A program made the translations under genes and the position numbers. From Micromonospora yangpuensis (GTDB lineage Bacteria; Actinomycetota; Actinomycetes; Mycobacteriales; Micromonosporaceae), in contig NZ_FMIA01000002.1 of the NCBI RefSeq assembly GCF_900091615.1, forward strand, positions 2,356,001 through 2,420,000: a stretch of DNA of 64,000 bases, read 5' to 3'. Shown here piece after piece: positions 36,873 through 64,000 of this stretch (the stretch's first letter is position 1; each line of letters starts with the position of its first letter). The notes under the pieces are model-generated. The model did not search any database and was not told where the DNA came from. It was given only the letters and a program-made list of their open reading frames with translations.

Positions 36873-37015
36873 ACGTCCGGACGCCTGGGGCCGTGCGCAT
36901 TCGCGCGGGGCATCGTCAGCATGTCGGGGTGTCGGGCTAGGCTCGCTGCGGCGCGCCGCAAAGGATCTTGCCGGAAGTCGGCCGCCCGCGCCGCCGAGAC
37001 CGGGAGTACGACCAG

Positions 37016-39073: not shown

Positions 39074-39117
39074 GCGCCCTGGACGCCACCCCCGCCCGCC
39101 GAGAAGAGAGCTGACCG

Positions 39118-46590: not shown

Positions 46591-47289
46591 GTGACCGATC
46601 CCGTGCTCGTCCTCCTGCACAGCCCGCTCGTCGGACCACTCACCTGGCAGCCCGTCGCCGCCTGCCTGCGGCGCGCCGGGCACACCGTGCTGACCCCGGA
46701 CCTGACCCCGGCGGCGACCGGTACGCCCCCGCACCAGCCGGCCGTCGCCGAGGCGGTGGCCGGGAGTCTGGTCGACCTGGGTGGTGACGCCCCGGTCGTA
46801 CTCGTGGGGCACAGCGGGGCCGGACCGCTGCTGCCCGGCGTGGCCCGGGCCGTGCCGCGAGAGGCGCATGCCCTGCTCTACGTGGATTCGGCGTTGCCCT
46901 GTCCGGGTCAGAGCTGGTGGGAGAACGCGCCACCGCCGCTCGTCGAGCAGCTCCGGGGGCTGGTCACCGACGGTAAGCTGCCGCCCTGGCACGAGTGGTT
47001 CCCGCCGGAGGCCGTCACCGAGCTGCTGCCCGACCCGCGACTACGGGCGGACTTCGTCCGGGAGCTTCCGCGCCTGCCCTACACCTACCTCACCGAACGG
47101 ACCGTGCCCCAGGAGTGGACCGGGCGGGCCGGCTACCTGCTGCTCAGCGAGGGCTACCGGCCGGACGCCCGGGTGGCGCTGCGTGCGGGCCTGCCGGTGG
47201 TGGAACGCAGCGCGCACCACCTGGCCATGCTCACCGCGCCGCAGCTGGTCAGCGACGCCCTGGCAGACCTGCTCACCGAGACGCGCTGA
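46591..47289 (+). CDS. Alpha/beta hydrolase
   Basis: 232 residues. LVLLHSPLVGPLTW, nucleophile elbow VGHSGAGPLLPG, and C-terminal SAHHLAMLTAPQLV with the catalytic His. Lacks a signal peptide. GTG 46591 with weak binding site. Its 3' end overlaps pseG by 17 bp on the opposite strand. Substrate unknown; unlikely to be part of the surface-sugar operon because of its orientation. Confidence 0.85.
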   Translation: MTDPVLVLLHSPLVGPLTWQPVAACLRRAGHTVLTPDLTPAATGTPPHQPAVAEAVAGSLVDLGGDAPVVLVGHSGAGPLLPGVARAVPREAHALLYVDSALPCPGQSWWENAPPPLVEQLRGLVTDGKLPPWHEWFPPEAVTELLPDPRLRADFVRELPRLPYTYLTERTVPQEWTGRAGYLLLSEGYRPDARVALRAGLPVVERSAHHLAMLTAPQLVSDALADLLTETR

Positions 47290-48361
47290 GGCCGGGACGT
47301 ACGGTGTCCGGCCCGGTGGTGACCAGGGCGAGCACCGCGTCGGCGACCCGGGCCCGGCCCTGTCCGTCCACGGTCGACCAGGCGCGGGCGGCCAGCTCGG
47401 CGCGCCGCTGCGGGGAGGTGAGCAGGGCGCGCAGGGTGCCGACCGCGTCCGCCCGCGCGGCCTCGCCGGCCGGACCGGCGGCGGCCAACGCCGGTAGCTC
47501 ACCCAGGCCGGCCACGATGCCCTCGGCGACCACCCGGTGGTACGACTCGCGCTGGTTGTCCACCACGCAGACCAGTCCGGCGGGCGTACCCAGGCAGCAC
47601 AGCTCCCAGGTGGCGGTGCCGGCGGCGCTGACCACCAGGTCAGCGACGGTGATCATGGTCGGTAGCTCGTCGGTGGGGCCGACCGCTCGCAGCGTCTGGC
47701 CCGGACCGGGGGCCAGTGCGGCCAGTTCCCCGGCGACGTCGGGCCGGCCGACGACCACGGTCAGCTCCATCGGGCACCCGGTGGCCAGCAGCAGCCGGGT
47801 CAGCACCGGCGCGGCCCCGAAGGCGTCGGTGCCACCGAAGAAGGCGAGCACCCGCGGCCGGTCGGCGGGCACCGCCGCTCGCGGTGCCGCCGGGCGGGCG
47901 GCCCGCACCGTGTCACGCAGCAGCGGGTACGCCGTGCCGGCGAGCAGCCGGCCGGGCAGCGGCGGGTCGTACGCCGCGCCGAGGTTCTGGTCCAGGTAGA
48001 GGTCGGCGTCCTGGCCCCGGGTGTCCCCGTCCACGATGGCCAGGGTCACCACGCCGGCCGCCCGTAGCGCCCCCGAGGAGGCCGGGTCCAGCTCGTACGA
48101 GTCGAGCACCATGACGTCCAGCCGGTGCCGGGCGGCCACCGCCACCAGTTCGGCGGGGTGCTGCGGGCCGGGATGCCGCGCGATGCCCCGGTCGGCGAGC
48201 TGGCGGGCCGCCCAGTCGAGGCCCTCGACGGTGCCGAAGAACTCCACCGTGTGGCCTCGGGCCAGGAACTCCTCGGCCAGGGCGAGACACCGGACCAGGT
48301 GCCCGACCCCGCGTACCGGGCCGGCGTCGCAGCGCATGCCGACCCGGACGGGCCGGACCAC
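47273..48361 (-). CDS. pseG: UDP-2,4-diacetamido-2,4,6-trideoxy-altropyranose hydrolase (PseG-like)
   Basis: 362 residues, GT-B fold. N-terminal RCDAGPVRGVGHLVRCLALAEEF contains the catalytic His of GxGH; C-terminal half GPTDELPTMITVADLVVSAAGTATWELCCLG is the MurG-like UDP site, with VDNQRESYHRVVAEG. Cleaves UDP from the diacetamido sugar in step 4 of pseudaminic acid synthesis. Last gene of the leftward operon, 35 bp after pseF. GTG 48361 has no clear ribosome binding site. Confidence 0.9.
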   Translation of the reverse strand: MVRPVRVGMRCDAGPVRGVGHLVRCLALAEEFLARGHTVEFFGTVEGLDWAARQLADRGIARHPGPQHPAELVAVAARHRLDVMVLDSYELDPASSGALRAAGVVTLAIVDGDTRGQDADLYLDQNLGAAYDPPLPGRLLAGTAYPLLRDTVRAARPAAPRAAVPADRPRVLAFFGGTDAFGAAPVLTRLLLATGCPMELTVVVGRPDVAGELAALAPGPGQTLRAVGPTDELPTMITVADLVVSAAGTATWELCCLGTPAGLVCVVDNQRESYHRVVAEGIVAGLGELPALAAAGPAGEAARADAVGTLRALLTSPQRRAELAARAWSTVDGQGRARVADAVLALVTTGPDTVRPGLSASR

Positions 48362-48396
48362 CGGCGGATCGGCGGGGAACTGCCCGCGTACCGTGT

Positions 48397-49128
48397 TCAG
48401 GACTCCTCCAACCGCTTCTGCCGGACATCCGCGTTGAGCGATCGTAGCGCCGGTTGCCCGGTGAGCCAGTCGGCGAGCTTGGCCAACGGGACGCTGACGT
48501 CGCCGAAGTGGTCGACCACCGCCCGGACCAGCGCCCAGTCCTGCTCGGTGTCGAGGGTCAGCCGCAGGTCGGAGCGGTCCGGGGTGAGCGTCAGGCCGAG
48601 CACCCGGAACAGCTCCGGATGGGTGTACGCGTACGAGGTGACGTGCACCCGGTGGTGGTCGGTGGCGAGCCGGTCCAGGGTGCGCAGCACGTCCGCACGG
48701 ATGATCTCCACGTCCAGCCCCCGGGGCAGGGTACGGGCGATCGAGGTGCTGACGTAGTCCAGGCCCGGCACCGCCTGGTAGACCCGGGCGACCAGGGTGA
48801 CGATCTCCGGGTCGAGCAGCGGGCAGTCGGCGGTGAAGCGCATCACCGCGTCACCGGGGTACCGGTCCACCGCGCCCACGAACCGACCGAGCACGTCGTC
48901 GACGGACCCCCGGTGACACGGTACGGCCAGCCGCCGGCACTCCTCGACGACCGCGTCGTCGACCCCGTCGGTGCTGGTGGCGACGACCAGTTCGGCAAGC
49001 ACGCCGCTGTCCCGGGCGGCCCGGACCACCCGGCCCAGCACGCTGCGGCCGGCCAGCGGACGCAGCACCTTGCCCGGCAACCGGGACGAACCCATCCGGG
49101 CCTGCACCACGCCGACGATCCGGTTCAC
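48397..49128 (-). CDS. pseF: Nonulosonate cytidylyltransferase (PseF/SpsF-like)
   Basis: 243 residues. VGVVQARMGSSRLPGKVLRPL is the nucleotidyltransferase P-loop of the CMP-NeuAc-synthetase-like/SpsF family; TADCPLLDPEIV has the metal-binding Asp; LRLTLDTEQDWALV is typical of the SpsF branch. Activates pseudaminic acid with CTP (last cytosolic step). GTG 49128 overlaps the preceding stop (GTGA). The 609-residue gene upstream is open in the same region in another frame; homology fixes this start. Confidence 0.87.
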   Translation of the reverse strand: MNRIVGVVQARMGSSRLPGKVLRPLAGRSVLGRVVRAARDSGVLAELVVATSTDGVDDAVVEECRRLAVPCHRGSVDDVLGRFVGAVDRYPGDAVMRFTADCPLLDPEIVTLVARVYQAVPGLDYVSTSIARTLPRGLDVEIIRADVLRTLDRLATDHHRVHVTSYAYTHPELFRVLGLTLTPDRSDLRLTLDTEQDWALVRAVVDHFGDVSVPLAKLADWLTGQPALRSLNADVRQKRLEES

Positions 49129-50954
49129 TGTTGCTCCCCACCGTGCTGTTGGCGGCGTACCGCCGTGCGGACCTGTCGTTTCGCCGCCCCGGCCCCCCGG
49201 CGGGCCAGCCGCAGCGGGGTGATCGCGAGCTTGCCCATCCGGTAGCCGAGGGTGCCGCTGAGCAGGTCGAGCTTGGTCTCGGCCCGGCGCAGCGCCCGTT
49301 CCCGGTGGGTGAGCAGCTGCTCGGTCCACGCCAGCCGGGCGGTCAGCCGGGTCAACTCGGCACGCTGACGCAGCCACGCCTCGCGCAGCTGCTGGACGCT
49401 CTCCCGGCCGGTCGGCGGGGCCGTCGGTGTCACCGCCCGCAGGGCCGCCGCGAGGTCGGCGCGGGCGGTGTCGTCGAGCCCACGGCGGGCCGCGACGACT
49501 GCCGCCTCCACCTCGACGGCGATGGCCACGATGGCCCGGTCCAGGTCCCGGCCGGTCAGCCCACCGAGGACCACGGTCAACCCGACGACGTCCAGGGTGG
49601 ACGGCCACGGGTGGGCGTACCCGCCGGTGAGCAGGTCGGCGGCGAACCGCCACAGGGCCCGGGCCAGCACCACCTCGGTCGCCAGCGGGTCGATCGCCTG
49701 CCAGCCCGGGTCGAGTACCGCGTGGTCGCCGGCGGCACCGACCACCACGTTGTCCAGGCCGGACACCGCCACCGCCCCGGTCAACCGGTCGTCGACGCCC
49801 TGCCCGGCCAGCCACCGCGCATAGGCCGTGAGCAGTCGCCGCAGGGCGCCCAGGTCCCGGCGCAGTACGGCGTCGAGCAGCACGGTGCGCAGCAACCGCC
49901 CCTCGGGGACCCGGCCGGTCGACGTACCCGGGTCCCGGTACGCCACCTCCCGGCTGGCGAACGGCGGTGCCGGTTCGGCGGCCGGGTTCGGCGTCGGTGC
50001 GGCGAGCGCCCGCCAGCGCCAGCCGTCTGCGCCGTCGTACACCTCGGTCACCCCGCTACCTGGCGGCCCGGCGCACAACAGGGCGACCGGCAGGGTGATC
50101 CGGTCCGGCGCGGCGGCGACCACCGCTCCGGCCGCACCGGTGACGGGCCGGTGGGCGAGGACCAGCCAGCCGGGGGCGAGTGCGGCGGCGAGGCCGGTGT
50201 GCAGCGCGTCCACCGCCAACCGTGCCGGATCCTGCAACACCGGCCGCTCCCCAACCGCGCAGGCGTCGTGCAGGACCGCGTCGAACAGGCCGGAGCCGCG
50301 CTGCTCGGCCAGCGGGCCGGTGGCCAGCAACGCCGTCGCCGACCGCCACCGGGGGTAGGCGGCGAAGCTGCCCCACGGGTGCAGCCCGGCGGCGGTGAGC
50401 CGGTCGGTCAGCTGGTCCAGGTCGGCCGGCCGGTCGGGGGCCAGGATGCCCTCCACCGCCCAGTCGGCGTCGTCCCGGCCGGCGTACCAGGGGACCGGGT
50501 CGACCAGCCGGCCCAGGCCGAACGGGTTCTCCGCGCCCAGCAGCAGGAGACCACCGGGGCGCAGCGCCGTCACCAGGCGCTCCAGCAGCGCGGTCCAGCC
50601 CAGCGGTCGGTCCTGGGCCGACTCGATCGCGGCCAGCCCGGCGGCGGCCACCACCACGTCGTACGCGCCGTCGATCCCGGTCGCGCCACCGACGAGCGTG
50701 CGGGCCGCGCGGGCGGCGACCGCGGTCCCGTCGGGTTCGCCGCGCAGCAGGCAGGTGACCTCGGCGTGGGCCAGCCGGTCCAGCAGCGCCGGATCGTGCG
50801 GGCCGGCCAGCAGCACCCGGGCCCCGACCGGCACCAGCCGGGCGAGCAGCGCGAGCAGCGGCTCACCCCCGGCGGCCCGGCCGGTGGCCAGGTCCGACCA
50901 GGCAGGCATCTCACCCCCGGGCAGCTCGACCGCGGGTACGGTCTCAGCGCTCAC
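49125..50954 (-). CDS. Methyltransferase-like protein with C-terminal coiled coil, unknown role
   Basis: 609 residues. The N-terminal 160 residues look like a Rossmann SAM-methyltransferase fold (ARVLLAGPHDPALLDRL, YDVVVAAAGLAAIES, LVTALRPGGLLLLGAENPFG), though the glycine loop is degenerate. The middle resembles no family I can name (phosphotransferase-like VSGLDNVVVGAAGDHAVLDPGWQ). About 520-580 is a coiled coil, then a basic tail. GTG 50954 overlaps the previous gene by 11 nt, and its stop overlaps pseF, so it belongs to the Pse operon. May modify or tether the Pse-containing glycan (inference). Confidence 0.75.
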   Translation of the reverse strand: MSAETVPAVELPGGEMPAWSDLATGRAAGGEPLLALLARLVPVGARVLLAGPHDPALLDRLAHAEVTCLLRGEPDGTAVAARAARTLVGGATGIDGAYDVVVAAAGLAAIESAQDRPLGWTALLERLVTALRPGGLLLLGAENPFGLGRLVDPVPWYAGRDDADWAVEGILAPDRPADLDQLTDRLTAAGLHPWGSFAAYPRWRSATALLATGPLAEQRGSGLFDAVLHDACAVGERPVLQDPARLAVDALHTGLAAALAPGWLVLAHRPVTGAAGAVVAAAPDRITLPVALLCAGPPGSGVTEVYDGADGWRWRALAAPTPNPAAEPAPPFASREVAYRDPGTSTGRVPEGRLLRTVLLDAVLRRDLGALRRLLTAYARWLAGQGVDDRLTGAVAVSGLDNVVVGAAGDHAVLDPGWQAIDPLATEVVLARALWRFAADLLTGGYAHPWPSTLDVVGLTVVLGGLTGRDLDRAIVAIAVEVEAAVVAARRGLDDTARADLAAALRAVTPTAPPTGRESVQQLREAWLRQRAELTRLTARLAWTEQLLTHRERALRRAETKLDLLSGTLGYRMGKLAITPLRLARRGAGAAKRQVRTAVRRQQHGGEQQ

Positions 50955-51786
50955 CGGTCACCTCCCGGCCACGCGACCAGCCGAGCAGTTCGCGCAGTTC
51001 GGCGGGGGAGCACCGGTGGTCGGTGCCCAGTTCCTCGCGGGCGATCCCGGCGGCCAGCCCCGGATCGATCCTGGCGCCGTGCAGCTGCGGCCACTGCCGG
51101 CGGATCCGTGCGGTGCCACCGAAGGTGGGATCGTCGTCGGCCAGGGTCATCGGGTCGCCGTAGACCGCCGGCTCGCAGCCGGCCGCGATGCCGTAGAAGA
51201 TCGCGCTGGTCAGCCGGTTGGAGGCGACCCGCCGGTGCCGCCGCAGCTCGGTGAGCTGCCGGTCCAGGAAGTCCGGGTCGGTGTCGCGCCACCAGTGCCC
51301 CCGGTAGCCGTGGCAGACCACCCGGAAACCGGCCTCCTCGTAGTGCCGCCGGATGCGGGTCGTGCGGTACTCCTGCCAGTACAGGCAGACGGTCACCGGG
51401 CCCGGTTCAGTGGCCCGGATCTCGGCGATCAGCCGCCGGTGGTCGCCGTGCACCCGCTGGCCCTCCCAACCGTGGAACGGGTACCAGATGGTGCCCTCGC
51501 GCCGCTCGGCCGGCGGGTCGTCGGGGCGCATCGCCAACAGGTAGGCGAAGGGCGCGCCGATCACCACCACGTTGCGTCGCCCCAGCGACCAGGCCCGCCG
51601 CCGGGTCGGCTCGGACCAGAGCAGGCTCGGCGTGCCGGCGACGTACGGGTGGCCGGGGGCGAGCCCGTCGCCGACGTTCCAGCCGTGCTGGACGTACCCG
51701 TCGATCCTGGGCGGGTGGCCCGCGCCCAGCCCGCAGTAGCGGGCCAGCACGTGGGCGTGGCCGTAGAAGTGGTTGGCGTGGTGCAT
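50944..51786 (-). CDS. Unrecognised protein of the Pse operon, possibly a glycosyltransferase-like enzyme
   Basis: 280 residues, His/Arg/Trp-rich: HHANHFYGHAHVLARYCG, PPRIDGYVQHGWNVGDG, WYPFHGWEGQRVHGDH, VCHGYRGHWWRD, SNRLTSAIFYGIAAGCEPAVYGDPMT. The last block (conserved S-x-R, small-residue-rich, YGDP) resembles the donor-binding half of capsule/CDP-alditol-type transferases, but I cannot place it. ATG 51786 has GGAGA 4-5 nt upstream and lies 11 nt after pseC. Position argues for a role in transfer or modification of the nonulosonate. Confidence 0.7.
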   Translation of the reverse strand: MHHANHFYGHAHVLARYCGLGAGHPPRIDGYVQHGWNVGDGLAPGHPYVAGTPSLLWSEPTRRRAWSLGRRNVVVIGAPFAYLLAMRPDDPPAERREGTIWYPFHGWEGQRVHGDHRRLIAEIRATEPGPVTVCLYWQEYRTTRIRRHYEEAGFRVVCHGYRGHWWRDTDPDFLDRQLTELRRHRRVASNRLTSAIFYGIAAGCEPAVYGDPMTLADDDPTFGGTARIRRQWPQLHGARIDPGLAAGIAREELGTDHRCSPAELRELLGWSRGREVTGER

Positions 51787-51797
51787 CGCTCTCCGTC

Positions 51798-52964
51798 TCA
51801 GGCGAGGACGGTCCGGGCCCGGGGCCGGCCGACGTCCAGCGCCGCGCCGAGGGCGTCGACGACGCGGTCCTGGTCGGCGTCGGTCAGACCGGGGTACAGC
51901 GGCAGGGAGAGCTGCTCGGTGTAGAACGACTCGGCCACCGGGCAGGATCCGCGCCGGTACCCGAGGTCGGCGAAGACCGGGTGCCAGTGCGCCGGCAGGT
52001 AGTTCACCTGCACCCCGATTCCGGCGGCGCGCATCCGGTCGTACACCTGGCGACGGCGACCGTCGAGGACCCGGATCGGGTAGAGGTGCCAGGCCGGTTC
52101 CGCCCAGGCCCGGCGACCGGGGGTCCGGACCCCGGGCAGGTCGGCCAGGGCCTCGTCGTAGCGGGCGACCAGCCGGGCCCGGGCGGCGAGGAAGTCGCCG
52201 AGGCGGCGCAGCTGGCTGCGGCCCAGCGCGCAGAGCACGTCCGGCAGCCGGTAGTTCAGCCCGAACTCGGGCACCTCCTGGTGCCAGCCGCCCTCGTCGG
52301 GCCAGCGCAGCTCGTCGGGGTCGCGGACCAGGCCGTGGCTGCGGAACCGGCGGGCCCGCTCCAGCAACGCCGGGTCGGTCGCGGCGACCGCGCCGCCCTC
52401 GGCGGTGGTCAGGTTCTTGGTCGGGAAGAACGAGAAGGTGGTCAGGTCGGCGAGCGACCCGACCGGCCGGCCCCGGTAGGTCGCGCCGATCGAGTGCGCC
52501 GCGTCGGCCAGCAGCAGGGTGCCGGTGCCGGCCAGGGTGGCGCGCAGCGCGTCGTAGTCGGCCGGGTGACCGGCGTAGTCCACCGCCGACACCACTCGGG
52601 TCCGGCCGGTCACCGCCGCCGACACCGCCGCCGGGTCCAGGGTGTACGTCTCGGGTTCGACGTCGGCGAAGACGACAGTCGCGCCGAGGGCGACCGCGGT
52701 GCTGGCGGTGGCCACGAAGGTCATCGGCGCGACGACCACCTCGTCACCGGGGCCGATGCCGGCCGCCGCGTAGGCGGTGTGCAGGGCGGCGGTGCCGTTG
52801 GAGACCACCGCGCAGCCGGCCCCGCCGGTCCAGCCGGCCAGGTCGGTCTCGAAGGCGACCACCTGCGGGCCGGTGGTCAGCCAGTCGCTGCGCACGGCCG
52901 CGGCCACCGCCGCCACGTCGTCCTCGGTCACCGACTGCCGGCCGTACGGCAGCAGCCCGGTCAT
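51798..52964 (-). CDS. pseC: UDP-4-keto-6-deoxy-sugar aminotransferase (PseC-like)
   Basis: 388 residues, DegT/DnrJ/EryC1 family. Seen: SNGTAALHTAYAA, LLLADAAHSIGATYRG, and PLP-lysine motif FSFFPTKNLTTAEGG; C-terminal GVQVNYLPAHWHPVFADLGYRRG is characteristic of PseC. Transfers an amino group to C4 of the 4-keto sugar made by PseB. ATG 52964 overlaps the pseB stop (ATGA). Confidence 0.93.
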   Translation of the reverse strand: MTGLLPYGRQSVTEDDVAAVAAAVRSDWLTTGPQVVAFETDLAGWTGGAGCAVVSNGTAALHTAYAAAGIGPGDEVVVAPMTFVATASTAVALGATVVFADVEPETYTLDPAAVSAAVTGRTRVVSAVDYAGHPADYDALRATLAGTGTLLLADAAHSIGATYRGRPVGSLADLTTFSFFPTKNLTTAEGGAVAATDPALLERARRFRSHGLVRDPDELRWPDEGGWHQEVPEFGLNYRLPDVLCALGRSQLRRLGDFLAARARLVARYDEALADLPGVRTPGRRAWAEPAWHLYPIRVLDGRRRQVYDRMRAAGIGVQVNYLPAHWHPVFADLGYRRGSCPVAESFYTEQLSLPLYPGLTDADQDRVVDALGAALDVGRPRARTVLA

Positions 52965-53944
52965 CCGGTCACGCCGAGCATGTCGCGCAGCTGCTCGACG
53001 CTGAGCCACTGGTCGTTGCTGTCGGACTGGTACGCGAAGCCGTCGCCCACCTGCTGGCAGTCCTGCGGCGGCTGGTAGCCCCAGGTGGCGATGGTGGGCT
53101 GGACGATGAACCGGTCGGAAGCGCGCAGTGTCCGACGGCTGTCGTCCGGGGCGATCATCTCCTCGTGCAGCTTCTCGCCGGGCCGGATGCCGATCTCGTG
53201 GGTGGTGGCGTCCGGGGCGACCGCCTCGACCAGGTCCAGGATCCGCATGCTGGGGATGCGGGGCACGAACAGCTCGCCGCCCTGCATCTGGTCGAAGGAG
53301 TCGAACACGAACCGCACCGCCTGGTCGAGGGTGATCCAGAAGCGGGTCATCCGCTTGTCGGTGATCGGCAGCGGTTTGCCCTCGGCGGCGAGCCGGCGGA
53401 ACAGCGGCACCACCGAGCCCCGGCTGCCGACCACGTTGCCGTAGCGGACCACGGCGAACCGGGTCGGGTGCTGGGCGGCGTAGTGGTTGGCCGAGACGAA
53501 GAGCTTGTCGCCGACCAGCTTGGTCGCGCCGTACAGGTTGATCGGGCTGGACGCCTTGTCGGTGGAGAGCGCGATGACCTTCCGCACGCCGGCCTCGATC
53601 GCCGCGTCGACCACGTGCTGCGAGCCGGTGATGTTGGTGGCGATGAACTCCGAGGGGTTGTACTCGGCGGTGTCCACCTGCTTGAGCGCGGCGGCGTGCA
53701 CCACGTGGTCCACTCCGTGCATCGCCCGGGCCAGCCGGTACCGGTCCCGGACGTCGCCGATGAACCAGCGCAGCCGGGGGTCGTCGCCGAGCTGCTGACG
53801 CAGCTCGTACTGCTTGAGTTCGTCCCGGGAGAAGACCACCACCCGGGCCGGGTCGCACTCGGCCAGCAGATGCCGCAGGAAGGTCTTCCCGAACGACCCC
53901 GTACCCCCGGTGACCAGGATCGACGACCCATTCAACTCACTCAA
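52961..53944 (-). CDS. pseB: UDP-GlcNAc 4,6-dehydratase, inverting (PseB-like)
   Basis: 327 residues, extended SDR. NAD motif VTGGTGSFGKTF; FSRDELKQYELRQQ; ALKQVDTAEYNP; active-site region STDKASSPINLYGATK; substrate part MTRFWITLDQAVRFV. Converts UDP-GlcNAc to the 4-keto-6-deoxy-L-altrose-type sugar (step 1). Start is TTG 53944, with GGGGAG 5 nt upstream. A hairpin array of about 115 bp separates it from pseI. Confidence 0.94.
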   Translation of the reverse strand: MSELNGSSILVTGGTGSFGKTFLRHLLAECDPARVVVFSRDELKQYELRQQLGDDPRLRWFIGDVRDRYRLARAMHGVDHVVHAAALKQVDTAEYNPSEFIATNITGSQHVVDAAIEAGVRKVIALSTDKASSPINLYGATKLVGDKLFVSANHYAAQHPTRFAVVRYGNVVGSRGSVVPLFRRLAAEGKPLPITDKRMTRFWITLDQAVRFVFDSFDQMQGGELFVPRIPSMRILDLVEAVAPDATTHEIGIRPGEKLHEEMIAPDDSRRTLRASDRFIVQPTIATWGYQPPQDCQQVGDGFAYQSDSNDQWLSVEQLRDMLGVTG

Positions 53945-53970
53945 CTCCGCTCCCCAAGGTCGTTACTGTC

Positions 53971-54083
53971 GGCGGGCCGTGCGGCCCGCGCAAGGACTCG
54001 GCGGGCCGCCAGGCCCGCGCAGGTAATCGGGCGGGCCGCCAGGCCCGCGCAGGTGGTCGGGCGGGCGGCGCGGCCCGCGCGGT
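53971..54083. repeat. Array of four hairpin repeats inside the Pse operon
   Basis: Units begin at 53971, 54000, 54030 and 54060 (spacing 29, 30, 30). Each contains a hairpin such as GCGGGCC-GCCA-GGCCCGC (54001-54018). The array fills the pseI-pseB gap. Likely effects are partial termination or mRNA stabilisation that sets pseB-G expression relative to pseHI. Confidence 0.88.
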
Positions 54084-54089
54084 GACGGC

Positions 54090-55136
54090 TCAGATCAGGT
54101 CCCAGCTCAGCGGGGTGCCGCGGGCGGCGTCCCGGGTGAAGACGCGGCCCAGCACCCGGTCCAGCTCGACCGGGGGCAGGCCGCCGGCCGGCCGGATCGA
54201 CCGGACGTTGTCCCGGGTCACCGGCGTACCGGTGGCGACGTCGGCCACGACGTAGAGCGAGCGGCGGAACCGCAGCCCCTCCCGCTCGGTGGGGGTGGGG
54301 CCGACGACGGTGTCACCGAGCGCCGCCCAGGCCCGCTCGGACTCCACCCGCAGTGCGGCCAGCTCGGCCGGCTCCAGCGAGAAGTCGGCGTCCACCCCGC
54401 CGTCGCCGCGGCGCAGCGTCACGTGCTTCTCGATCAGGCAGGCGCCCAACGCCACCGCCGCCACCGGCACGCCGATGCCGGGCGTGTGGTCGGACAACCC
54501 GACAGGTACGCCGAACGCGTCGGCCAGCACCGGCAGCCGCCGCAGGTTGCTGTCGCGCGGCGGGGCCGGGTACGCGGCGGTGCAGGCCAGCAGCACGATG
54601 CCGGCGGCCCCGCCGTCCCGGGCGGTACGCACCGCGGCGTCGATCTCGGCCAGGGTGGCCATCCCGGTGGAGATGACCATCGGCTTGCCGGTGCTGGCGA
54701 CCAGCCGGATCAGCGGCAGGTCGACCAGCTCCGACGAAGCGATCTTGTATGCCGGGGTGTCCAGTCGCTCCAGCAGCGCCACCGCCGTCGCGTCGAACGG
54801 CGAGGAGAAGACCGTCAGGCCGTGCCGGCGGGCCCGTTCGAAGATCGGCTCGTGCCACTCGTACGGGGTGTGGGCCCGCTCGAAGAGCCGGTAGAGGTGC
54901 TCACCACCCCACAGGTCGTGGCCGCGGGAGATCCGGAACCCGGGCGCGTCGACGTCGATGGTGAGGGTGTCCGGCCGGTACGTCTGGAGTTTCAACGCGT
55001 GCGCCCCGGTGGCGGCCACCGCGTCCACGATCTCCAGGGCCCGGTCCAGGCTGCCGTTGTGGTTGCCGGACATCTCCGCGACCACCAACGGGCGCTCCCC
55101 GGCACCGACCACGTGCGGACCGATCTTGACTGTCAT
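54090..55136 (-). CDS. pseI: Pseudaminic acid synthase (PseI-like, NeuB family)
   Basis: 348 residues: NeuB TIM barrel (VVAEMSGNHNGSLDRALEIVDAVAATGAHALKLQTY; FSSPFDATAVALLERL; YKIASSE; STGMATLAEI; GLSDHTPGIGVP; EKHVTL) followed by a SAF antifreeze-like domain (LRFRRSLYVVADVATGTPVTRDNVRSIRP). Condenses the 6-deoxy diacetamido-altrose with phosphoenolpyruvate. ATG 55136 overlaps the pseH stop (ATGA). Confidence 0.95.
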   Translation of the reverse strand: MTVKIGPHVVGAGERPLVVAEMSGNHNGSLDRALEIVDAVAATGAHALKLQTYRPDTLTIDVDAPGFRISRGHDLWGGEHLYRLFERAHTPYEWHEPIFERARRHGLTVFSSPFDATAVALLERLDTPAYKIASSELVDLPLIRLVASTGKPMVISTGMATLAEIDAAVRTARDGGAAGIVLLACTAAYPAPPRDSNLRRLPVLADAFGVPVGLSDHTPGIGVPVAAVALGACLIEKHVTLRRGDGGVDADFSLEPAELAALRVESERAWAALGDTVVGPTPTEREGLRFRRSLYVVADVATGTPVTRDNVRSIRPAGGLPPVELDRVLGRVFTRDAARGTPLSWDLI

Positions 55137-55636
55137 GGCTCTCTGCTCAATTCCGTCCACACCACCTGGTGCGGCACTCCGTCGACGTCCCGCTGGTAGC
55201 GGCGGACACTGTGGAACCCGAAGCGCCGGTGCAGGGCCAGCACCGGCTTGTTGTCGGCGAGCGTCTCGCCGCCCAGGCTCCGGGCGCCGAGTTCTCCGAA
55301 GGCGTACGCGATCGCCGCCTCCTGCATCGACATCCAGGCCCGTAGCAGCTCCCGCCGCGCGTCCAGGCCGTCGATGTCCAGGTAGAAGCCCCAGACCAGG
55401 GCGCGGTGCGCCGAGGTCAGCCCGCTGAAGGTCACCACCGCGCTGTCGGCCTCCCGGTGCCGGTGGACCAGCACCCGCCGGTCCGGGTCGGTGCGGGTCC
55501 GCGCCCACCAGGCGGCGTGTTCGGCGGGGGTGATCTCGTGCCGGGTCAGGCTGACCGCGCGGACCTGCGGATGGTTGCGCCAGCGCAGGATCCGCGCCAG
55601 GTCGTCGTCGGTGGCCGGGCGCAGCGAACCGGTCAT
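55133..55636 (-). CDS. pseH: GNAT N-acetyltransferase (PseH-like)
   Basis: 167 residues. RWRNHPQVRAVSLTRHEITPAEHAAWWAR is the typical start of PseH; acetyl-CoA-binding region and NKPVLALHRRFGFHSVRRYQRDVDG. Acetylates the 4-amino group of the PseC product using acetyl-CoA. ATG 55636 overlaps the glycosyltransferase stop (ATGA). Confidence 0.92.
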   Translation of the reverse strand: MTGSLRPATDDDLARILRWRNHPQVRAVSLTRHEITPAEHAAWWARTRTDPDRRVLVHRHREADSAVVTFSGLTSAHRALVWGFYLDIDGLDARRELLRAWMSMQEAAIAYAFGELGARSLGGETLADNKPVLALHRRFGFHSVRRYQRDVDGVPHQVVWTELSREP

Positions 55637-56901
55637 CGCCGCCTCGCCAGCACCTTCGACCCGTCGGCCGCCACCGCACCCTGGCTCGCCGCACCCTGGG
55701 CCGTGCCGCCCGGGGCCGTGCCGCCCTGGGCCGTGCCGTCCTGGGTGGTGCCGTCCGGGGCCGTGCCGCCCTGGGTGGTGCCGTCGGCGGTCGGCCCGTC
55801 CGGGTCCGTGTCACCCGGGGTCGTGCCGCTCGGGGTGGGCCCGTCGGCGGTGGCCTCGGCGGGGCGGGTGGCGCGCAGCCGGCCGGCCATCCGGTGGGCC
55901 CGCCGCAGCGCCACGTACGCCAGGTAGCTGTCCCGGCCGACCAGGCGGTGCTTGAGCCCTGGCACCCCCTCCGGCTGCGGGTAGCCCTCGGCGGGCAGGT
56001 ACCGGCGGTAGTGCTCGGCGACCCGGCGGAAGAAGTCCCGGCGCAGGTGCGGGTGGAGCCGGTCGTCGTTGCCCACCACCACCAGGTAGTGGCTGATCAT
56101 CAGGGCGAACAGGTCGGCGCGCAGCCGGGGGTCGACGCCGTGCCGGTCCACCCAGTCGAAGAGCCGTTCGTACTGCGCGAAGGCGTCGAAGTGCCGGTCG
56201 CTGCGGGTGGAGGTGATCGCACCGAGGCGGCCCTGCCGGTACCGGTAGCAGACCTGGTCCAGCACCGAGATCCGGCGTGCGCCGATCAGCAGCGGGTGAC
56301 TGAACGGGATGTCCTCGTACCAGCCGGGGTGGAAGCGCAGCCCCAGCTCGTCCAGGAAACCCCGCCGGACGACCTTGTTCCACGCGGTGTGCTGCAACCG
56401 CAGCAGCTCGGGACGCTCGGTCAGGGTCACCGGGCCGGGCACCCCACGCAGCAGGTGACTGCTGGCGTCGACCTCCAGCCGGCCGTTGTCGTGCACCCGC
56501 AGGTGGTCCAGGAGCAGCACGTCGGGCCGGTCGCGGCGCAGCCGCCGCAGCACCGTGGCGACGGTGCCGGGTGGCAGCCAGTCGTCGCTGTCGACGAACC
56601 AGACGTACTCGCCGGTGGCCTGGTCCAGGCCGGCGTTGCGGGCCGGGCCGAGCCCGACGTTGCGGGCCAGCCGGACCACCCGCACCTGCGGGCGGCCGGC
56701 GGCGTACGAGTGGAGCATCTCGCCGCACCGGTCCGGGGAGGCGTCGTCGACGGCGACCACCTCGACCGCCGCGGACTCCTCGGCGGTCAGCCCGCCGAGG
56801 ATCGACTCCAGGCACTGGTACAGGTACGCCTCGACGCCGTACACGGGCACGACGAAGCTCAACAGGGGGGTTCGCGTCGGATCGGTGACCACGCCCGCCA
56901 C
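55633..56901 (-). CDS. Family 2 glycosyltransferase with repeat tail
   Basis: 422 residues. GT-A fold: LLSFVVPVYGVEAYLYQCLESIL, VVAVDDASPDRCGEML, WFVDSDDWLPPGTV (DxD-type), HPGWYEDIPFSHPLL. No membrane helices. The last 70 residues are a low-complexity Gly/Thr/Gln tail (G-T-A/T-Q-G/D pentapeptide-like units) ending in a basic cluster. First gene of the pse operon in reading order. Donor and acceptor unknown. GTG 56901 with AAGG upstream. Confidence 0.88.
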   Translation of the reverse strand: MAGVVTDPTRTPLLSFVVPVYGVEAYLYQCLESILGGLTAEESAAVEVVAVDDASPDRCGEMLHSYAAGRPQVRVVRLARNVGLGPARNAGLDQATGEYVWFVDSDDWLPPGTVATVLRRLRRDRPDVLLLDHLRVHDNGRLEVDASSHLLRGVPGPVTLTERPELLRLQHTAWNKVVRRGFLDELGLRFHPGWYEDIPFSHPLLIGARRISVLDQVCYRYRQGRLGAITSTRSDRHFDAFAQYERLFDWVDRHGVDPRLRADLFALMISHYLVVVGNDDRLHPHLRRDFFRRVAEHYRRYLPAEGYPQPEGVPGLKHRLVGRDSYLAYVALRRAHRMAGRLRATRPAEATADGPTPSGTTPGDTDPDGPTADGTTQGGTAPDGTTQDGTAQGGTAPGGTAQGAASQGAVAADGSKVLARRR

Positions 56902-56986
56902 CTTCGACGGCGTGGGTGGCCGGCCCCGGAACCCCGCGTGTACGGGTGACGGGCGGTTACTTAACAGCCCGTCACCCTCCGGTGAA

Positions 56987-58312
56987 CTATCGGTTGAGGA
57001 TCTGCTTCACCCGGCCGCCGACGGCCTGCCGGACCCGGGTCCGCAGCCGCTGCCCCTGCAACTCCTCCAGGCTCGCGCGCAGCTCGGCGTTCTGCTCCCG
57101 CAGCCAGTCCACCCGGGTGATCCACTGCTCGGCCGGGGTGGACACCTGCGGCTGCACCGGCGGCGGGAAGACGGTCTGGCGGACCTGCTCGTCGAAGCGG
57201 GCCGCGCTGTCGCCGTCGGCGAAGGAGTTGCCCAGGTCGTGCTTGTTGAGGAAGGACAGCATCGTGGCGTACCGGGCCTTGTGCCCGTTGTTCAGCGCCG
57301 TGTAGTCCGCCTCGTCGTAGAGCTGCGCGGCGTCGACGTCACCGGAGACGTCGGTCATCTCCCGGTACGGGATGTCGAAGTAGCGGGCCAGCTCCAGGGT
57401 GCGCGAGTCGTGCGCGAAGAGGTAGCCGGGGGTGCCGGCGATCAGCGCGGTGATGGTGCCGTGGATCCGGGTGCCGAAGTTGAAGTCGAAGTCGGACAGG
57501 TGGTCCATCCACGTCCACGGGTCGACGAACATCCGGATCTTGTCCTCGGTGAACAGCGGGTGCGAGGTGTGGATCGGGATGTTGCTCTTCTTGCCCCGGT
57601 CCTCCGGCGCGTCGCCGAAGAGCAGCACGCCGAGGGTCTTGACGTCCTGCGGGATGTAGCAGAGGTTCGGGTACTTCTTGTGGTGCGCGCTGATCACCTT
57701 GGCCATCGACTTGACGTACGGCGAGACGGTCAGCGCGATCTTGTCGTTCGGGCCCAGGTACGGCTTCTTCTTCTCCACCCGCAGGTTGTCGCCGTGCAGG
57801 AACATCGACGGGCAGCCGATCACCTCGACCGCCGAGAAGCCAAGCGTCCGCAGGTAGCTCTCGGTGATCTCACCGCGTACCCCGATGGTGTGCGACCGGT
57901 CGAGCACGGCGGAGACGAAGTCCTTGACCGTGTCGTCGATCGGGCGCAGGTACTCCCGGTCGCCCTTGAGGTTGGTCTGCGCGCCGACCCCGAGCACCAC
58001 CACCGGGATCTTCAGCTTGCGGATCAACCGGGTCATCCCGGCCAGCCGGTGGGCGAAGCTGCGGCGGAAGGCGTTGGCCAGCGGCACCACGAAGACGTCG
58101 TACGACTCGTTGATGATGTCGGCCTCGCGGGCGTCGGCCCGGAAACCGGTGGAGGTGATCTCCGCCGTCGCGGTCCGCAGCAGCTTGTGTGCCGAGTGGC
58201 TGAAGACCAGGTTGCCGGTGTTGTCGCCGATCCAGTTCCGTTCGAAGGTCTCCTCCGGGGAGTAGATGTCGAACGGCCCCTTCTTGGCTCGGAGCAGAAT
58301 CCGCTGGTGCAT
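56987..58312 (-). CDS. Polysaccharide pyruvyl transferase family protein
   Basis: 441 residues. PS_pyruv_trans fold: NWIGDNTGNLVFSHSAHKLL, VVVLGVGAQTNL, SHTIGVRGEITESYL, and FNFGTRIHGTITALIAGTPGYLFAHDSRT (the conserved GxRxHG block near the C-terminus); a short coiled coil follows (about 400-430). Family members add ketal pyruvate to glycans from phosphoenolpyruvate. ATG 58312 has AGAGGGA upstream. 85 bp upstream of the glycosyltransferase gene, so it may head the operon. Confidence 0.87.
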   Translation of the reverse strand: MHQRILLRAKKGPFDIYSPEETFERNWIGDNTGNLVFSHSAHKLLRTATAEITSTGFRADAREADIINESYDVFVVPLANAFRRSFAHRLAGMTRLIRKLKIPVVVLGVGAQTNLKGDREYLRPIDDTVKDFVSAVLDRSHTIGVRGEITESYLRTLGFSAVEVIGCPSMFLHGDNLRVEKKKPYLGPNDKIALTVSPYVKSMAKVISAHHKKYPNLCYIPQDVKTLGVLLFGDAPEDRGKKSNIPIHTSHPLFTEDKIRMFVDPWTWMDHLSDFDFNFGTRIHGTITALIAGTPGYLFAHDSRTLELARYFDIPYREMTDVSGDVDAAQLYDEADYTALNNGHKARYATMLSFLNKHDLGNSFADGDSAARFDEQVRQTVFPPPVQPQVSTPAEQWITRVDWLREQNAELRASLEELQGQRLRTRVRQAVGGRVKQILNR

Positions 58313-58570
58313 CGCTGGTCCCTCTCGTCGTTCCCGCGCCTGCGGTCATCCGGTAGACGCCGCAGGCGAAGCGGTGCGGCCCCGTCGTACTTCCGCCCCT
58401 TCGGCGAACCGAATCGTCAACTCTCTGGAGACCGGAATTTTAGGGCATCGGTCCGCTGCGGACCCAGGTGCCCACCGTGATCATGATCGTCGGATGTGCC
58501 GGAACCGGGCATCCCGGGCCCGGGTAAGGTGCCCCGCGGCGGTCGATGCCCGGCCGCCGGAAGAGGAGAC

Positions 58571-58612
58571 GTGGTGCTGGTGGTCCCGAGCATGCCCGGC
58601 GTAGCGGCATGA
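58571..58612 (+). CDS. Putative 13-codon leader ORF coupled to the acyltransferase gene
   Basis: GTG GTG CTG GTG GTC CCG AGC ATG CCC GGC GTA GCG GCA TGA, preceded by AGAGGAGA. Its stop overlaps the acyltransferase ATG (ATGA at 58609), while that ATG lacks a binding site of its own. Could serve as a translational coupling leader. Prediction only. Confidence 0.4.
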   Translation: MVLVVPSMPGVAA

Positions 58613-59811
58613 CCAGCGTCGCGGCGACCGGTACGCCGTCGGCCCTGTCCCGCCTGCCCTCGCTGACCGGCCTGCGCTGGATCGCGGCCCTGCTGGTCTT
58701 CGGATTCCACGCGGCCACCATGCGGGTCGTCGCCGAGCCGGGACACCAGGCCGTGCTGGAGCGGATCTTCACGCTCGGCCTCTCCGGCGTGCAGTTCTTC
58801 TTCATCCTCAGCGGTTTCGTGCTGGTCTGGTCGGCCCGGCCGGAGGACACCCGGCGGGCGTTCTGGCGTCGCCGGGCGGCGAAGATCTATCCCAACCACA
58901 TCCTGATGTGGGCGGTGGCCCTGCTGGTCGGCCTCTGGTTCGCCGACCCGGTCAGCCTCCGGGCCGCGCTGAGCAACCTGGTGCTGATCCAGGCCTGGGA
59001 CCCGACCCCCGGCATCTTCTACAGCATCAACACGGTCAGCTGGTCGCTCGCCTGCGAGATGTTCTTCTACCTCTGCCTGCCCTTCGCGCTGCCGTGGATC
59101 CGGCGGGCCCGCCCCGGGGCGCTCTGGGCAGTGGTGGTCGCCGTGCCGCTGCTGATCGTGGCGCTCTGGCCGGCCCAGCTGCTGGTCGCCGAGGAGAACC
59201 GCTGGTGGTTCACCCAGGTCTTCCCGATCACCCGGTCGCTGGAGTTCTGGATGGGCGTCGCCGCGGCCGAGCTGATGCGGCGGGGCAGCTGGCGTGGTCC
59301 CCGGCTCACCGTGGCCACGATCGTCTTCGTCGCGACCTGGGTGGTCGCCGGCCAGTGGATCCGGGCCGAGCTCTGGGCCGGGCTGCTGTCGGTGGCGTAC
59401 ATCCTGGTGATCACCGCCGCCGCAGACGCCGACGTGCACCGGCGGCCCTCGCCGTGGCGGTCCCGGCCGCTGGTCTGGCTCGGCGAGGTCTCGTTCGCCT
59501 TCTACCTGGTGCACGTCCTGGTGATGGTCACCGTGCTGCGGCTCACCGGCCACTACGGTGTCGGGCTGCCCGGCTGGTGGGGGCCGTTCGCGGTGGTCGC
59601 CTTCCTGCTGGTCAACCTGGGGCTGGCCGCGATGCTGCACCGCTGGGTGGAGAACCCGATGATGCGGCTGTTCGGCCCACCCCGCCGGGCCGCGTCCGCC
59701 GGTGACCGCGGGCTGGGGCCGGTGCCCGCCGGTGCCCGCCGGTCGGAGTCGGTGCCCGCCGGTGACGGTCGGCCCGGATCGGCACCCGCCGGCACCGGTC
59801 GGACCGACTGA
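58609..59811 (+). CDS. Acyltransferase family 3 membrane protein
   Basis: 400 residues, about ten helices. SLTGLRWIAALLVFGFHAAT contains the conserved R and H of the family; SGVQFFFILSGFVLVWSAR and AKIYPNHILMW follow; C-terminal WVENPMMRLF. Acylates surface sugars in the membrane (O-acetylation is usual). A Gly/Ala/Pro tail has three PAG(A/D/T) repeats. ATG 58609 is the conserved start. Divergent from the pyruvyltransferase gene, with about 260 bp between the two. Confidence 0.88.
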   Translation: MTSVAATGTPSALSRLPSLTGLRWIAALLVFGFHAATMRVVAEPGHQAVLERIFTLGLSGVQFFFILSGFVLVWSARPEDTRRAFWRRRAAKIYPNHILMWAVALLVGLWFADPVSLRAALSNLVLIQAWDPTPGIFYSINTVSWSLACEMFFYLCLPFALPWIRRARPGALWAVVVAVPLLIVALWPAQLLVAEENRWWFTQVFPITRSLEFWMGVAAAELMRRGSWRGPRLTVATIVFVATWVVAGQWIRAELWAGLLSVAYILVITAAADADVHRRPSPWRSRPLVWLGEVSFAFYLVHVLVMVTVLRLTGHYGVGLPGWWGPFAVVAFLLVNLGLAAMLHRWVENPMMRLFGPPRRAASAGDRGLGPVPAGARRSESVPAGDGRPGSAPAGTGRTD

Positions 59812-61319: not shown

Positions 61320-63026
61320 TCAGCCGGTGGGGGAGAGGCGTACGCCCCCGCCGGCCTGCGACGGCGTGGCCCGGGGCTCCGGCGGGCTCCAGCCCGGCTC
61401 CAGGTGCCGCCGGGCGGCGGCCAGGAACACCTCGGCGTACGTCTCGGCCGGGAAGTCACCGAGGTAGTGCGCCCGGGTGGCCCACCGGGCCGACGCCGCC
61501 GGATCGGTCTCCAGCAACCGGGTGAGCACCTCCTCGACGTCGGCCAGGTCCCGCCGCAGCAGGTAGCCGGAGGCGGCCAGCGGGAACCGCTCGACGAACC
61601 GGTCGTCGCCCAGCATGTCGGTGACCGCGTACGGCTTGCCCGAGTAGAGGTAGTCGGAGATGACCCCGGAGACGTCGGAGATCAACGCGTCGGAACGGTT
61701 GACGCACTCGGTCAGGGTCAGCTCCCGGCTGGCCGCGCCGAAGACGTGCTGCCGGCCGGTGCGGGACCGGTCCGCGGCGAGCAGCTCGGTCACCCGGGCC
61801 AACTGCCGGGCCGAGGTCGGGTTCTGCGTGGTGTACGGGTGCGCCCGCAGGATCACGGTGGCACCCCGGGCCAGCAGGGCCCGGATCAGCCCCTCGGCCA
61901 CCGGCAGCGAGCAGTAGTTGGCGTCGGCGTGGTGCCCCGTCCAGGTGGGGGTGTAGAGGACGGTCGGGTTGGCCGATGCGGTGACCGGCTCCCGCCGGAC
62001 CTGGATCGCCTCCACCTGCGGGCGGCCGACCACCTCGAACTTTTCGGCCGGGATGGCCACCCCGGCGCGGGCGTACCGCTCGATGGCCGCCGGCCCGGCG
62101 ACGAAGATCCGGTCGAAGATCCCCGACACCGGGTTGGCACTCGGCGCCTTGTCGCTGTCGCCGTGGTGCAGCTGGATGTGGGTCAGCTGGGTGAACCGTA
62201 CGCAGTGGCTGTTCTTCGCGCCGTGGTTGACGTAGAAGGCCGCCCGCAGGCTCGGCACCAGCACCTCGTCCAGCGCCTTGAGCGTCGGGCAGAACACCAC
62301 CGGGGCGCTGGTGGCCGCCGACACCGAGCCGAGGAACTCCGGCTCCCGCAGCACCACCAGGAACGGGCGGCCGAGTCGTTCCAGGTACGGCAGCCACATG
62401 GTGACCTGGTACTCCGAGCCGGGCGGGGCGGAGAAGTAGAGCAGGAACTCCGGCTGGTGCCGGCGCAGCGCCCGCCCCACCGGGGTGCCCGCCTGTGGAC
62501 GCAGCCGGCCCCGGGCCAGGCCCAGGGCCACCGTACCGGCGGCGGCACCGACGGCGAGGGTGGCCAGCAGGGCCACCACCGCCGGCAGCACCAGCAGGGC
62601 GGCCAGGGCCACCACCGCGAGCAGCGCCAGCACGGCGTTGCCCAGCTGGGCGGCGATGGTCGCCGACCACTGCCGGACCGGTAGGTTGGCCGCCCGCAGC
62701 TCCAGCAGGCCGGCCTCGCGCAGCGGCCCGGCGAACAGGATCAGCCCCAGCACTGCCAGCGCGGTGACCGCCAGCACCGGATCGAAGCCGGCGTCGAGCC
62801 GGCGGGCGTAGCCGACCAGGACGCCCGCCGCCACCAGGGTCGTCTCGGGCAGCACGTCGGCGGCGGGCCGGACCCGGCGCTCCCACGCGGCGGCGGCCAG
62901 CGCCGCCACGGCCAGCGCCAGCCCCCAGCCGGTGGCCCCGGTGAGGGCGACGACGCCGAAGGCGAGCAGGGCCAGGCCGGTGGTCAGGCACCTGGCGATC
63001 AGCTTCCTGACCAGGTCACCACGCAT
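61320..63026 (-). CDS. CDP-glycerol/ribitol glycerophosphotransferase-like protein (TagF/TarL family)
   Basis: 568 residues. N-terminal third has five to six membrane helices (GLALLAFGVVALTG to VVALLATLAVGAAAG); the rest is a GT-B poly(alditol phosphate) transferase: YVNHGAKNSHCVRF, HIQLHHGDSDKAPS, VLYTPTWTGHHADANY, LRAHPYTTQNP, and DVSGVISDYLYSGKPYAVTD. Extends poly(glycerol/ribitol phosphate) or a similar chain. ATG 63026 has GGAGTGAC upstream. 42 bp downstream of the cytidylyltransferase/SDR gene, which supplies CDP-alditol, so the two form a teichoic-acid-like pair. Confidence 0.85.
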   Translation of the reverse strand: MRGDLVRKLIARCLTTGLALLAFGVVALTGATGWGLALAVAALAAAAWERRVRPAADVLPETTLVAAGVLVGYARRLDAGFDPVLAVTALAVLGLILFAGPLREAGLLELRAANLPVRQWSATIAAQLGNAVLALLAVVALAALLVLPAVVALLATLAVGAAAGTVALGLARGRLRPQAGTPVGRALRRHQPEFLLYFSAPPGSEYQVTMWLPYLERLGRPFLVVLREPEFLGSVSAATSAPVVFCPTLKALDEVLVPSLRAAFYVNHGAKNSHCVRFTQLTHIQLHHGDSDKAPSANPVSGIFDRIFVAGPAAIERYARAGVAIPAEKFEVVGRPQVEAIQVRREPVTASANPTVLYTPTWTGHHADANYCSLPVAEGLIRALLARGATVILRAHPYTTQNPTSARQLARVTELLAADRSRTGRQHVFGAASRELTLTECVNRSDALISDVSGVISDYLYSGKPYAVTDMLGDDRFVERFPLAASGYLLRRDLADVEEVLTRLLETDPAASARWATRAHYLGDFPAETYAEVFLAAARRHLEPGWSPPEPRATPSQAGGGVRLSPTG

Positions 63027-63068: not shown

Positions 63069-64000
63069 TCAGCCGGTCACCACGGCGGAGGGCCGGGTGG
63101 CCTGACTCGGCACGGTCGCCGCCGCCGGGGCCTCGCCGGGTGCCCGCCGGACGTCGATGACCTGCCCGGTCAGCTCGGAGATCAGCACGTCCAGCGAGGC
63201 CTGGGCGACGGTCTCGGCGGCCAGCAGGGTGTGCTCCGGCTCCTCGCCGAAGGCCCGGGTCCGCATCGGGGTGGCGGTGCGCTCCGGGTTGATGCAGTTG
63301 ACCCGGACGCCCAGCTCGGCCCACTCGTCGGCGAGCGCCTGGGTCAGGTTGACCAGGGCGGCCTTGGTGGAGGAGTAGAGCGCGTACTGGGAGCGGCCCC
63401 GGGTGTAGGAGCTGGACGTGTAGAGCAGCAGCTGACCCTTGGTCTGCTGCAGGTAGGGCAGCGACTGCCGGGCGATGGTGACCGGCCCGACGAAGTTGAC
63501 CTGCAGGACCCGGTCCATGGTCGCCTCGTCCATGTCGACCAGGGCGCCCTTCTCCAGGATGCCCGCGGTGACCACGACGTGGTCGATGCGCCCGGTGGCC
63601 TCGAACGCGGTCTTCAACGCCGCCTCGACGTCGGTGGCCTGCTCCACGTGGGTGCCGGTGCCGGAGCGGCTGAACGGGAACACCTGGGCGCCGTAGCGGC
63701 GGGCCAGCTCGGTCAGCTCGTGGCCGATGCCGTAGCTGCCGCCGAAGACCACGATCGTCCGCCCGGCCAGCTCCTCGGAGTAGCTGCGCGGGTCGGTCAG
63801 CCGGGGCACCTGGGCGGCGGCGAGCTGGAACAGCTTGTCCGCCAGGTGCACGTCCACCGGGTGGGTGACCTTGATGTTCTCGTCCGAGCCGTCGATCACC
63901 TTGATCGGGGTGCCGGGCAGGTAGCGCAGCACCACGCCGCAGTCGTCGGTGGCGGCGAAGTGCGGGTCGTCGGCGGCCAGCCGGTACGCCTCGCGGATGG
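63069..64000 (-). CDS. Bifunctional cytidylyltransferase/SDR (ribitol-5-phosphate type), 5' end beyond the window
   Basis: The frame runs off the right edge; a GTG at 63935 is internal. Seen in the part present: the end of an IspD/TarI-like cytidylyltransferase (ATDDCGVVLRYLPGTP, IDGSDENIKVTHPVDV) followed by a short-chain dehydrogenase of the TarJ/Bcs1 type (VVFGGSYGIGHEL, VTAGILEKGALV, YTSSSYTRGRSQYALYSSTKAAL with Ser-Tyr-Lys triad, INPERTATPM). Such proteins reduce ribulose-5-phosphate and form CDP-ribitol. Pairs with the downstream transferase for wall-polymer synthesis. Confidence 0.9.
   Translation of the reverse strand, partial: IREAYRLAADDPHFAATDDCGVVLRYLPGTPIKVIDGSDENIKVTHPVDVHLADKLFQLAAAQVPRLTDPRSYSEELAGRTIVVFGGSYGIGHELTELARRYGAQVFPFSRSGTGTHVEQATDVEAALKTAFEATGRIDHVVVTAGILEKGALVDMDEATMDRVLQVNFVGPVTIARQSLPYLQQTKGQLLLYTSSSYTRGRSQYALYSSTKAALVNLTQALADEWAELGVRVNCINPERTATPMRTRAFGEEPEHTLLAAETVAQASLDVLISELTGQVIDVRRAPGEAPAAATVPSQATRPSAVVTG

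Follow-up and report, generated by a model that had tools for sequence, protein, structure and literature searches.

A pseudaminic acid gene block of Micromonospora yangpuensis encodes a probable transferase of a new family

Where would a soil actinomycete use pseudaminic acid, and which enzyme would attach it? The question is raised by a stretch of 64,000 nucleotides from Micromonospora yangpuensis (assembly GCF_900091615.1, contig NZ_FMIA01000002.1, positions 2,356,001 to 2,420,000; hereafter the window), in which gene calls and hidden Markov model (HMM) scans revealed a complete pseudaminic acid gene set. As a preliminary description of this DNA had stated, homologues of all six enzymes (PseB, PseC, PseH, PseG, PseI, and PseF) are encoded in one leftward block, and two proteins that it could not place lie between pseC and pseF. 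These are unk2 (50944–51786, minus strand, 280 amino acids) and unk1 (49125–50954, minus strand, 609 amino acids), both without an assigned family. The pathway is of a known kind and would yield 5,7-diamino pseudaminic acid activated with cytidine monophosphate (CMP), to be used within its own operon. We consider it fairly probable, on genomic association and predicted fold, that unk2, as a small GT-B enzyme, transfers pseudaminic acid from CMP to a membrane-linked envelope glycan, probably a wall glycopolymer, and that unk1 is its operon partner. The latter would most likely hold or position unk2 on the nascent chain, or end that chain.

The distribution of unk2 was compared with that of PseI in 150 Micromonosporaceae genomes, which were searched with unk2, PseI (cut-off E ≤ 1e-30), the TagF-like protein of the window, and flagellin. 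The unk2 gene was found in 34 of these genomes and PseI in 36, 33 of them at 62% to 100% identity and three (G007, G026, and G030) at only 37% to 38%. All 33 genomes with a close PseI also carry unk2, and the sole unk2 genome without PseI (G094) is 87% complete and split into 830 contigs. The preliminary description had named a wide occurrence of the two proteins without pse genes as evidence against their role; for unk2, a close PseI is present in 33 of the 34 genomes. Within the genus (16 genomes of the sample), seven genomes have both genes and nine have neither. Fisher tests of unk2 against PseI gave values of 2e-32 and 9e-5, which serve as guides only because the genomes are related. A class-wide sample of 296 genomes (cut-offs E ≤ 1e-5 for unk2 and E ≤ 1e-60 for PseI) contained unk2 relatives in ten genomes, PseI in 14, and both in eight. 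Seven of the eight genomes with PseI at 60% identity or more carry unk2. In the eighth (G267, 82% complete, 530 contigs), the contig with PseI (L149) is 5 kb long and breaks off within pseC, on whose far side unk2 often sits. Weak unk2 relatives without PseI at the cut-off are present in two genomes, G348 and G420; the locus of G348 encodes homologues of PseB, PseC, PseF, and PseG together with a PseI-like protein of 35% identity.

The gene order is conserved as well. A scan of a genome collection confirmed 305 unk2 loci, the best 80 of which were used for the analysis of neighborhoods; this set extends just 10 kb upstream of unk2. PseB and PseC directly precede unk2 in 56 of the 80 loci. In 53 of them, unk1 is followed by PseF; the remaining three (L002, L034, and L038) stop before that point. 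Counted by loci, unk1 stands beside unk2 in 79 of the 80. Based on 106 places with an intact unk2 open reading frame (ORF), a few of which represent the same genome twice, unk1 adjoins unk2 in 99. An intact unk1 ORF is located within 250 bases of unk2 in 90 places, and in nine further places the adjacent unk1 match is cut by a contig end or its ORF was not called in full. No adjacent unk1 was found in the remaining seven (L067, L140, L141, the second copy in L144, L145, L146, and L147). In four other families (five genomes, L140 to L144), unk2 is located within 10 kb of pse genes in a changed order and orientation.

The sequence of unk2 pointed to no known family. Neither the protein of the window nor two sets of 65 and 27 family members matched a Pfam family, and searches against the PDB gave chance-level sequence matches or none. 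In the protein database, 982 homologues were found at E ≤ 0.001; the named ones among the best 120 are mostly annotated as "hypothetical protein" and belong to genera that we take to be Micromonosporaceae. A further homology search pointed to no named distant family among the best 120 of 1028 matches. The name polysaccharide pyruvyl transferase, which a few homologues bear in UniRef, was rejected, since unk2 has no Pfam match and no profile similarity to the pyruvyltransferase of the window. The structural model displays a compact GT-B fold (mean pLDDT 86), with TagF/TarL and the epimerases of the uridine diphosphate (UDP)-GlcNAc 2-epimerase type as the nearest folds. The preliminary description had proposed the protein pair as a new polymerising or transfer step; the co-occurrence with PseI and the GT-B model support the transfer role for unk2. 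Judged from association and predicted fold, unk2 probably represents a new family of CMP-pseudaminic acid transferases.

UDP-GlcNAc 2-epimerases have this fold as well, so that unk2 could instead convert an intermediate of the pathway, as an epimerase or hydrolase of sugar nucleotides. This is very improbable: the set of pathway homologues is already complete, PseG included, unk2 has 280 residues compared to 357 to 384 in UDP-GlcNAc 2-epimerase chains, and no epimerase Pfam match was obtained with any of the 65 or 27 family members.

If unk2 is a transferase, it differs from those compared here. The wall teichoic acid polymerases TagF/TarL share the GT-B fold with the unk2 model, but PF04464 was not matched by unk2, and a profile comparison of unk2 with the window's TagF-like protein showed no similarity. 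The Maf proteins, which transfer nonulosonic acids to flagellin, resemble unk2 in the proposed use of nucleotide-activated pseudaminic acid. However, PF01973, the MptE-like family that we assume to include Maf, was matched neither by unk2 and its family members nor in the genome (the control matched in archaea only), and flagellin is lacking here. PF05159, which presumably represents the KpsS/KpsC type (GT118), was likewise not matched in the genome, by unk2, or by the 65 and 27 family members, in a scan that used this family and no GT118-specific profile. KpsS1 (GT118) is described as a retaining pseudaminic acid transferase of an Acinetobacter capsule and a relative of KpsC and WbbB (PMC12887879). 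It is similar to unk2 in the proposed CMP-pseudaminic acid donor and in a role in glycan building, but KpsS1 is described as a protein of the KpsC/KpsS type (PMC12887879), whereas unk2 has 280 residues and no PF05159 match. The CMP-site motif (K/R)XHP given in the same report (PMC12887879) was not spotted in the unk2 alignment, which was inspected by eye only; conserved QHGW and FHG segments are present elsewhere. The titles and abstract openings of the literature on pseudaminic acid in actinobacteria and cell walls, its transferases, and teichulosonic acid, top-ranked for these broad topics, contained no description of the unk2–unk1 pair; the pseudaminic acid transferases named there and in PMC12887879 are KpsS1 and the Maf proteins.

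The block contains a second candidate for the transfer step. A GT2 glycosyltransferase (55633–56901, minus strand, 422 amino acids; PF00535, 111.5 bits), already recognized in the preliminary description, might transfer pseudaminic acid, in which case unk2 would add another sugar or modify the glycan. The GT2 gene overlaps pseH by 4 bp, pse loci hold several glycosyltransferases, and a GT2 match is present in 44 of the 80 loci, many of the others stopping short of its place. We nevertheless regard this role of the GT2 protein as unlikely. In six loci (L114 to L117, L124, and L141) that contain both PseI and unk2 and leave space for neighbors of PseI, no GT2 match was found, although one might be located elsewhere in the genome. 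GT2 enzymes typically act on UDP- or guanosine diphosphate-activated sugars, and unk2 follows PseI genome by genome, while GT2 was counted by loci only.

For unk1, at least 201 homologues are present in the protein database (the 7995 candidates with most shared words were scored), and the best 120 are mostly named "class I SAM-dependent methyltransferase". Searches against the PDB sequences gave chance-level matches or none. The N-terminal part is predicted to adopt a methyltransferase-like fold with an altered cofactor-site motif; the fold comparison covered this part only and not residues ~273–510. The C-terminal part, which is helical and basic, is predicted as a single long helix (residues 517–605) with low-confidence stretches, as judged without a dedicated coiled-coil predictor. 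The predicted secondary structure of the middle part appeared compatible with a kinase by eye. This assignment was dropped because the candidate catalytic residues vary: of 35 rows, 12 retain N402 and 15 retain D415.

WbdD, the chain terminator of the O9a O-antigen, is described with a methyltransferase, a second part, and a long C-terminal helix (PMC3482155). The order of parts in unk1 is similar, but the sequences are not. Homology was rejected as hhalign gave probabilities of 0.1% and 0.3%. The residues that would mark a kinase are not conserved in unk1, and its methyltransferase motif is altered. With this set of parts, unk1 is probably a scaffold or terminator partner of unk2. A more specific proposal, which is possible but doubtful, is that unk2 represents a new CMP-pseudaminic acid-specific family in a fixed complex with unk1. 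In this complex, unk1 would have lost its usual cofactor site and its coiled-coil tail would act as a ruler or anchor that sets the length or the end of a pseudaminic acid-bearing wall glycopolymer. The pair would then realize the WbdD principle in a Gram-positive setting, with proteins of unrelated sequence.

As to the acceptor, pseudaminic acid could decorate flagellin as in Gram-negative bacteria, with unk2 and unk1 as a flagellin glycosylation system. Flagellin was matched in 16 of the 34 unk2 genomes of the family sample, where a flagellar use is conceivable. For the window, this is extremely improbable: no Flagellin_N match was found in its genome (the control matched in four of 14 genomes), none was found in the other 18 unk2 genomes, including all seven of the genus, and of the 41 genomes of the family sample in which flagellin was matched, 25 lack unk2. 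Flagellin glycosylation was therefore rejected as the use in this genus.

A neighboring locus points to the envelope instead. A TagF-like protein of the CDP-glycerol glycerophosphotransferase family is encoded at 61320–63026 (minus strand; PF04464, 33.9 bits). Next to it, at 63069–64000 (minus strand), a fusion of an IspD cytidylyltransferase with a short-chain dehydrogenase/reductase (SDR) is encoded; the window contains its C-terminal (SDR) portion, and the gene continues past the end of the window (L111:1069–2571). The poly(alditol phosphate) genes announced in the preliminary description are thus real, but the nearest starts 3.0 kb and not 5 kb from the block. Beyond the window, the genes for an ATP-binding cassette (ABC) ATPase and permease, that is, an exporter (L111:2711–4418), and a further sugar cluster with an SDR/AMP-binding/LuxE set (L111:10781–13997) were found. 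In all seven pse genomes of the genus (G000, G003, G065, G107, G131, G138, and G144), the TagF-like gene is located upstream of pseI, at a distance of 6.1 to 8.6 kb and in the same orientation; hence, the position of the pse block next to the TagF-like locus is constant in the genus. Together with the lack of flagellin, this makes a cell-envelope polymer the likely target of pseudaminic acid. The teichulosonic acids of actinobacterial walls would be comparable, since a nonulosonic acid is proposed as part of an envelope glycan here, too, in this case from genes alone.

Alternatively, the operon might produce a secreted glycoside or a capsule and not a wall-bound polymer, with unk2 and unk1 as glycan assembly enzymes. 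No wall ligase gene was found within the block, and the pyruvyl transferase as well as an acyltransferase (58546–59811) would also suit a capsule. We judge this quite unlikely given the neighboring TagF-like gene in seven of seven genomes, joined in the window's genome by the IspD–SDR and exporter genes, and given a gene of the LCP family, a wall-ligase type, ~3 kb beyond an unk2–unk1 pair detached from pse genes (L057); neither constitutes proof.

Several observations weigh against a pseudaminic acid transferase acting on a wall polymer. Some pseudaminic acid clusters lack unk2: in the class-wide sample, PseI occurs at 44% to 53% identity in six genomes, and an unk2 relative, a weak one, was found in just one of them (G341). 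Therefore, unk2 is tied to one branch of pseudaminic acid producers and not to all. Conversely, some unk2 copies are located away from pse genes; 24 of the 80 loci have no PseB or PseC within the stretch covered (6 to 21 kb), although in one of them (L074) PseI and PseH are found 6 to 7 kb away. The wall-polymer setting of the preliminary description gains support in the genus, but the TagF-like gene is also present in seven of the nine genus genomes without pse genes. The TagF-like protein occurs in 53 of the 150 genomes and, at 75% identity or more, in 14 of the 16 of the genus. Outside the genus, it was matched in only three of 27 unk2 genomes (G051, G071, and G076) and at no more than 34% to 36% identity, so the link between pse and TagF is local to the genus.

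In a tree of 64 rows, 25 detached unk2 copies form a single clade (support 100/100) nested within the pse-linked copies, and five other rows labeled as detached fall outside it. From this nested position, the detached pairs seem to go back to a single early duplication, whose unk2 left the pse block together with its unk1. The detached second copies of the pair (L057 to L081 without L068) lie near inverted GT4 and GT2 genes; of the 24 detached loci, 22 contain GT4 genes and 19 contain GT2 genes.

If unk2 is indeed a transferase, it would supply the step that is missing in several actinobacterial families between making and using pseudaminic acid, and its gene could serve as a marker predicting strains with surface pseudaminic acid. 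A glycosyltransferase family without a Pfam model would be gained, together with an enzyme that could attach pseudaminic acid in vitro.

The pathway enzymes, which span 47273–55636, were assigned by NCBIfam equivalog cut-offs (in bits) and Pfam domains; all genes of the block are on the minus strand. PseI, the pseudaminic acid synthase (54090–55136; TIGR03586, 444.6 bits, cut-off 340.25; NeuB and SAF domains), and PseB, the inverting UDP-GlcNAc 4,6-dehydratase (52961–53944; TIGR03589, 491 bits, cut-off 407.75), score above their cut-offs. Slightly under them are the aminotransferase PseC (51798–52964; TIGR03588, 398 bits, cut-off 423.5; PF01041), the UDP-sugar hydrolase PseG (47273–48361; TIGR03590, 139.1 bits, cut-off 153.55), and the N-acetyltransferase PseH (55133–55636; TIGR03585, 79.3 bits, cut-off 93.1). 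The CMP-sugar cytidylyltransferase (48397–49128; PF02348, CTP_transf_3, 90.5 bits) reaches 28.7 bits against the PseF equivalog, far under the cut-off of 205.7, and is named PseF by domain and position only. A second NeuB-family gene in the genome (G000:C2:4974939–4975955), whose product is 36% identical to PseI, possibly belongs to another nonulosonic acid pathway.

The preliminary description had most genes overlapping by 4 bp. Such overlaps were found at four of the nine junctions (GT2/PseH, PseH/PseI, PseB/PseC, and unk1/PseF); unk2 and unk1 overlap by 11 bp, and the remaining four are gaps, that between pseI and pseB measuring 145 bp. This gap contains a tandem repeat (53971–54080, 30-bp unit × 3.7, Tandem Repeats Finder), which is palindromic by eye and marks the site where relatives carry extra genes. 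Two types of insert occur there (L005:2974–7132; L008:3519–5651; L015:5745–7646). The insert of L005 comprises LuxC, LuxE, and AMP-binding genes, combined with a window-like PseH (75%), whereas those of L008 and L015 comprise genes for an AMP-binding protein, a PMT_2-like membrane protein, and a PseH-like acetyltransferase of 41% to 51% likeness to that of the window. Possibly, the two types lead to different N-acyl groups on the sugar.

Upstream of the six pathway steps, the block continues to 58312 with the GT2 gene and the gene for an accessory protein of the polysaccharide pyruvyl transferase family (PS_pyruv_trans; 56987–58312, 441 amino acids; PF04230, 83.0 bits), which the preliminary description had also placed here. 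Its C-terminal tail appears basic and coiled-coil-like by eye. The protein is encoded in at least six of the 80 related loci, most of which stop short of its place; in L035 and L051 the neighboring acyltransferase and GT2 genes are kept and the PF04230 protein is absent. Elsewhere in the window, adjacent gyrB-type and gyrA-type topoisomerase genes (36968–41607) may encode a second gyrase or a topoisomerase IV.

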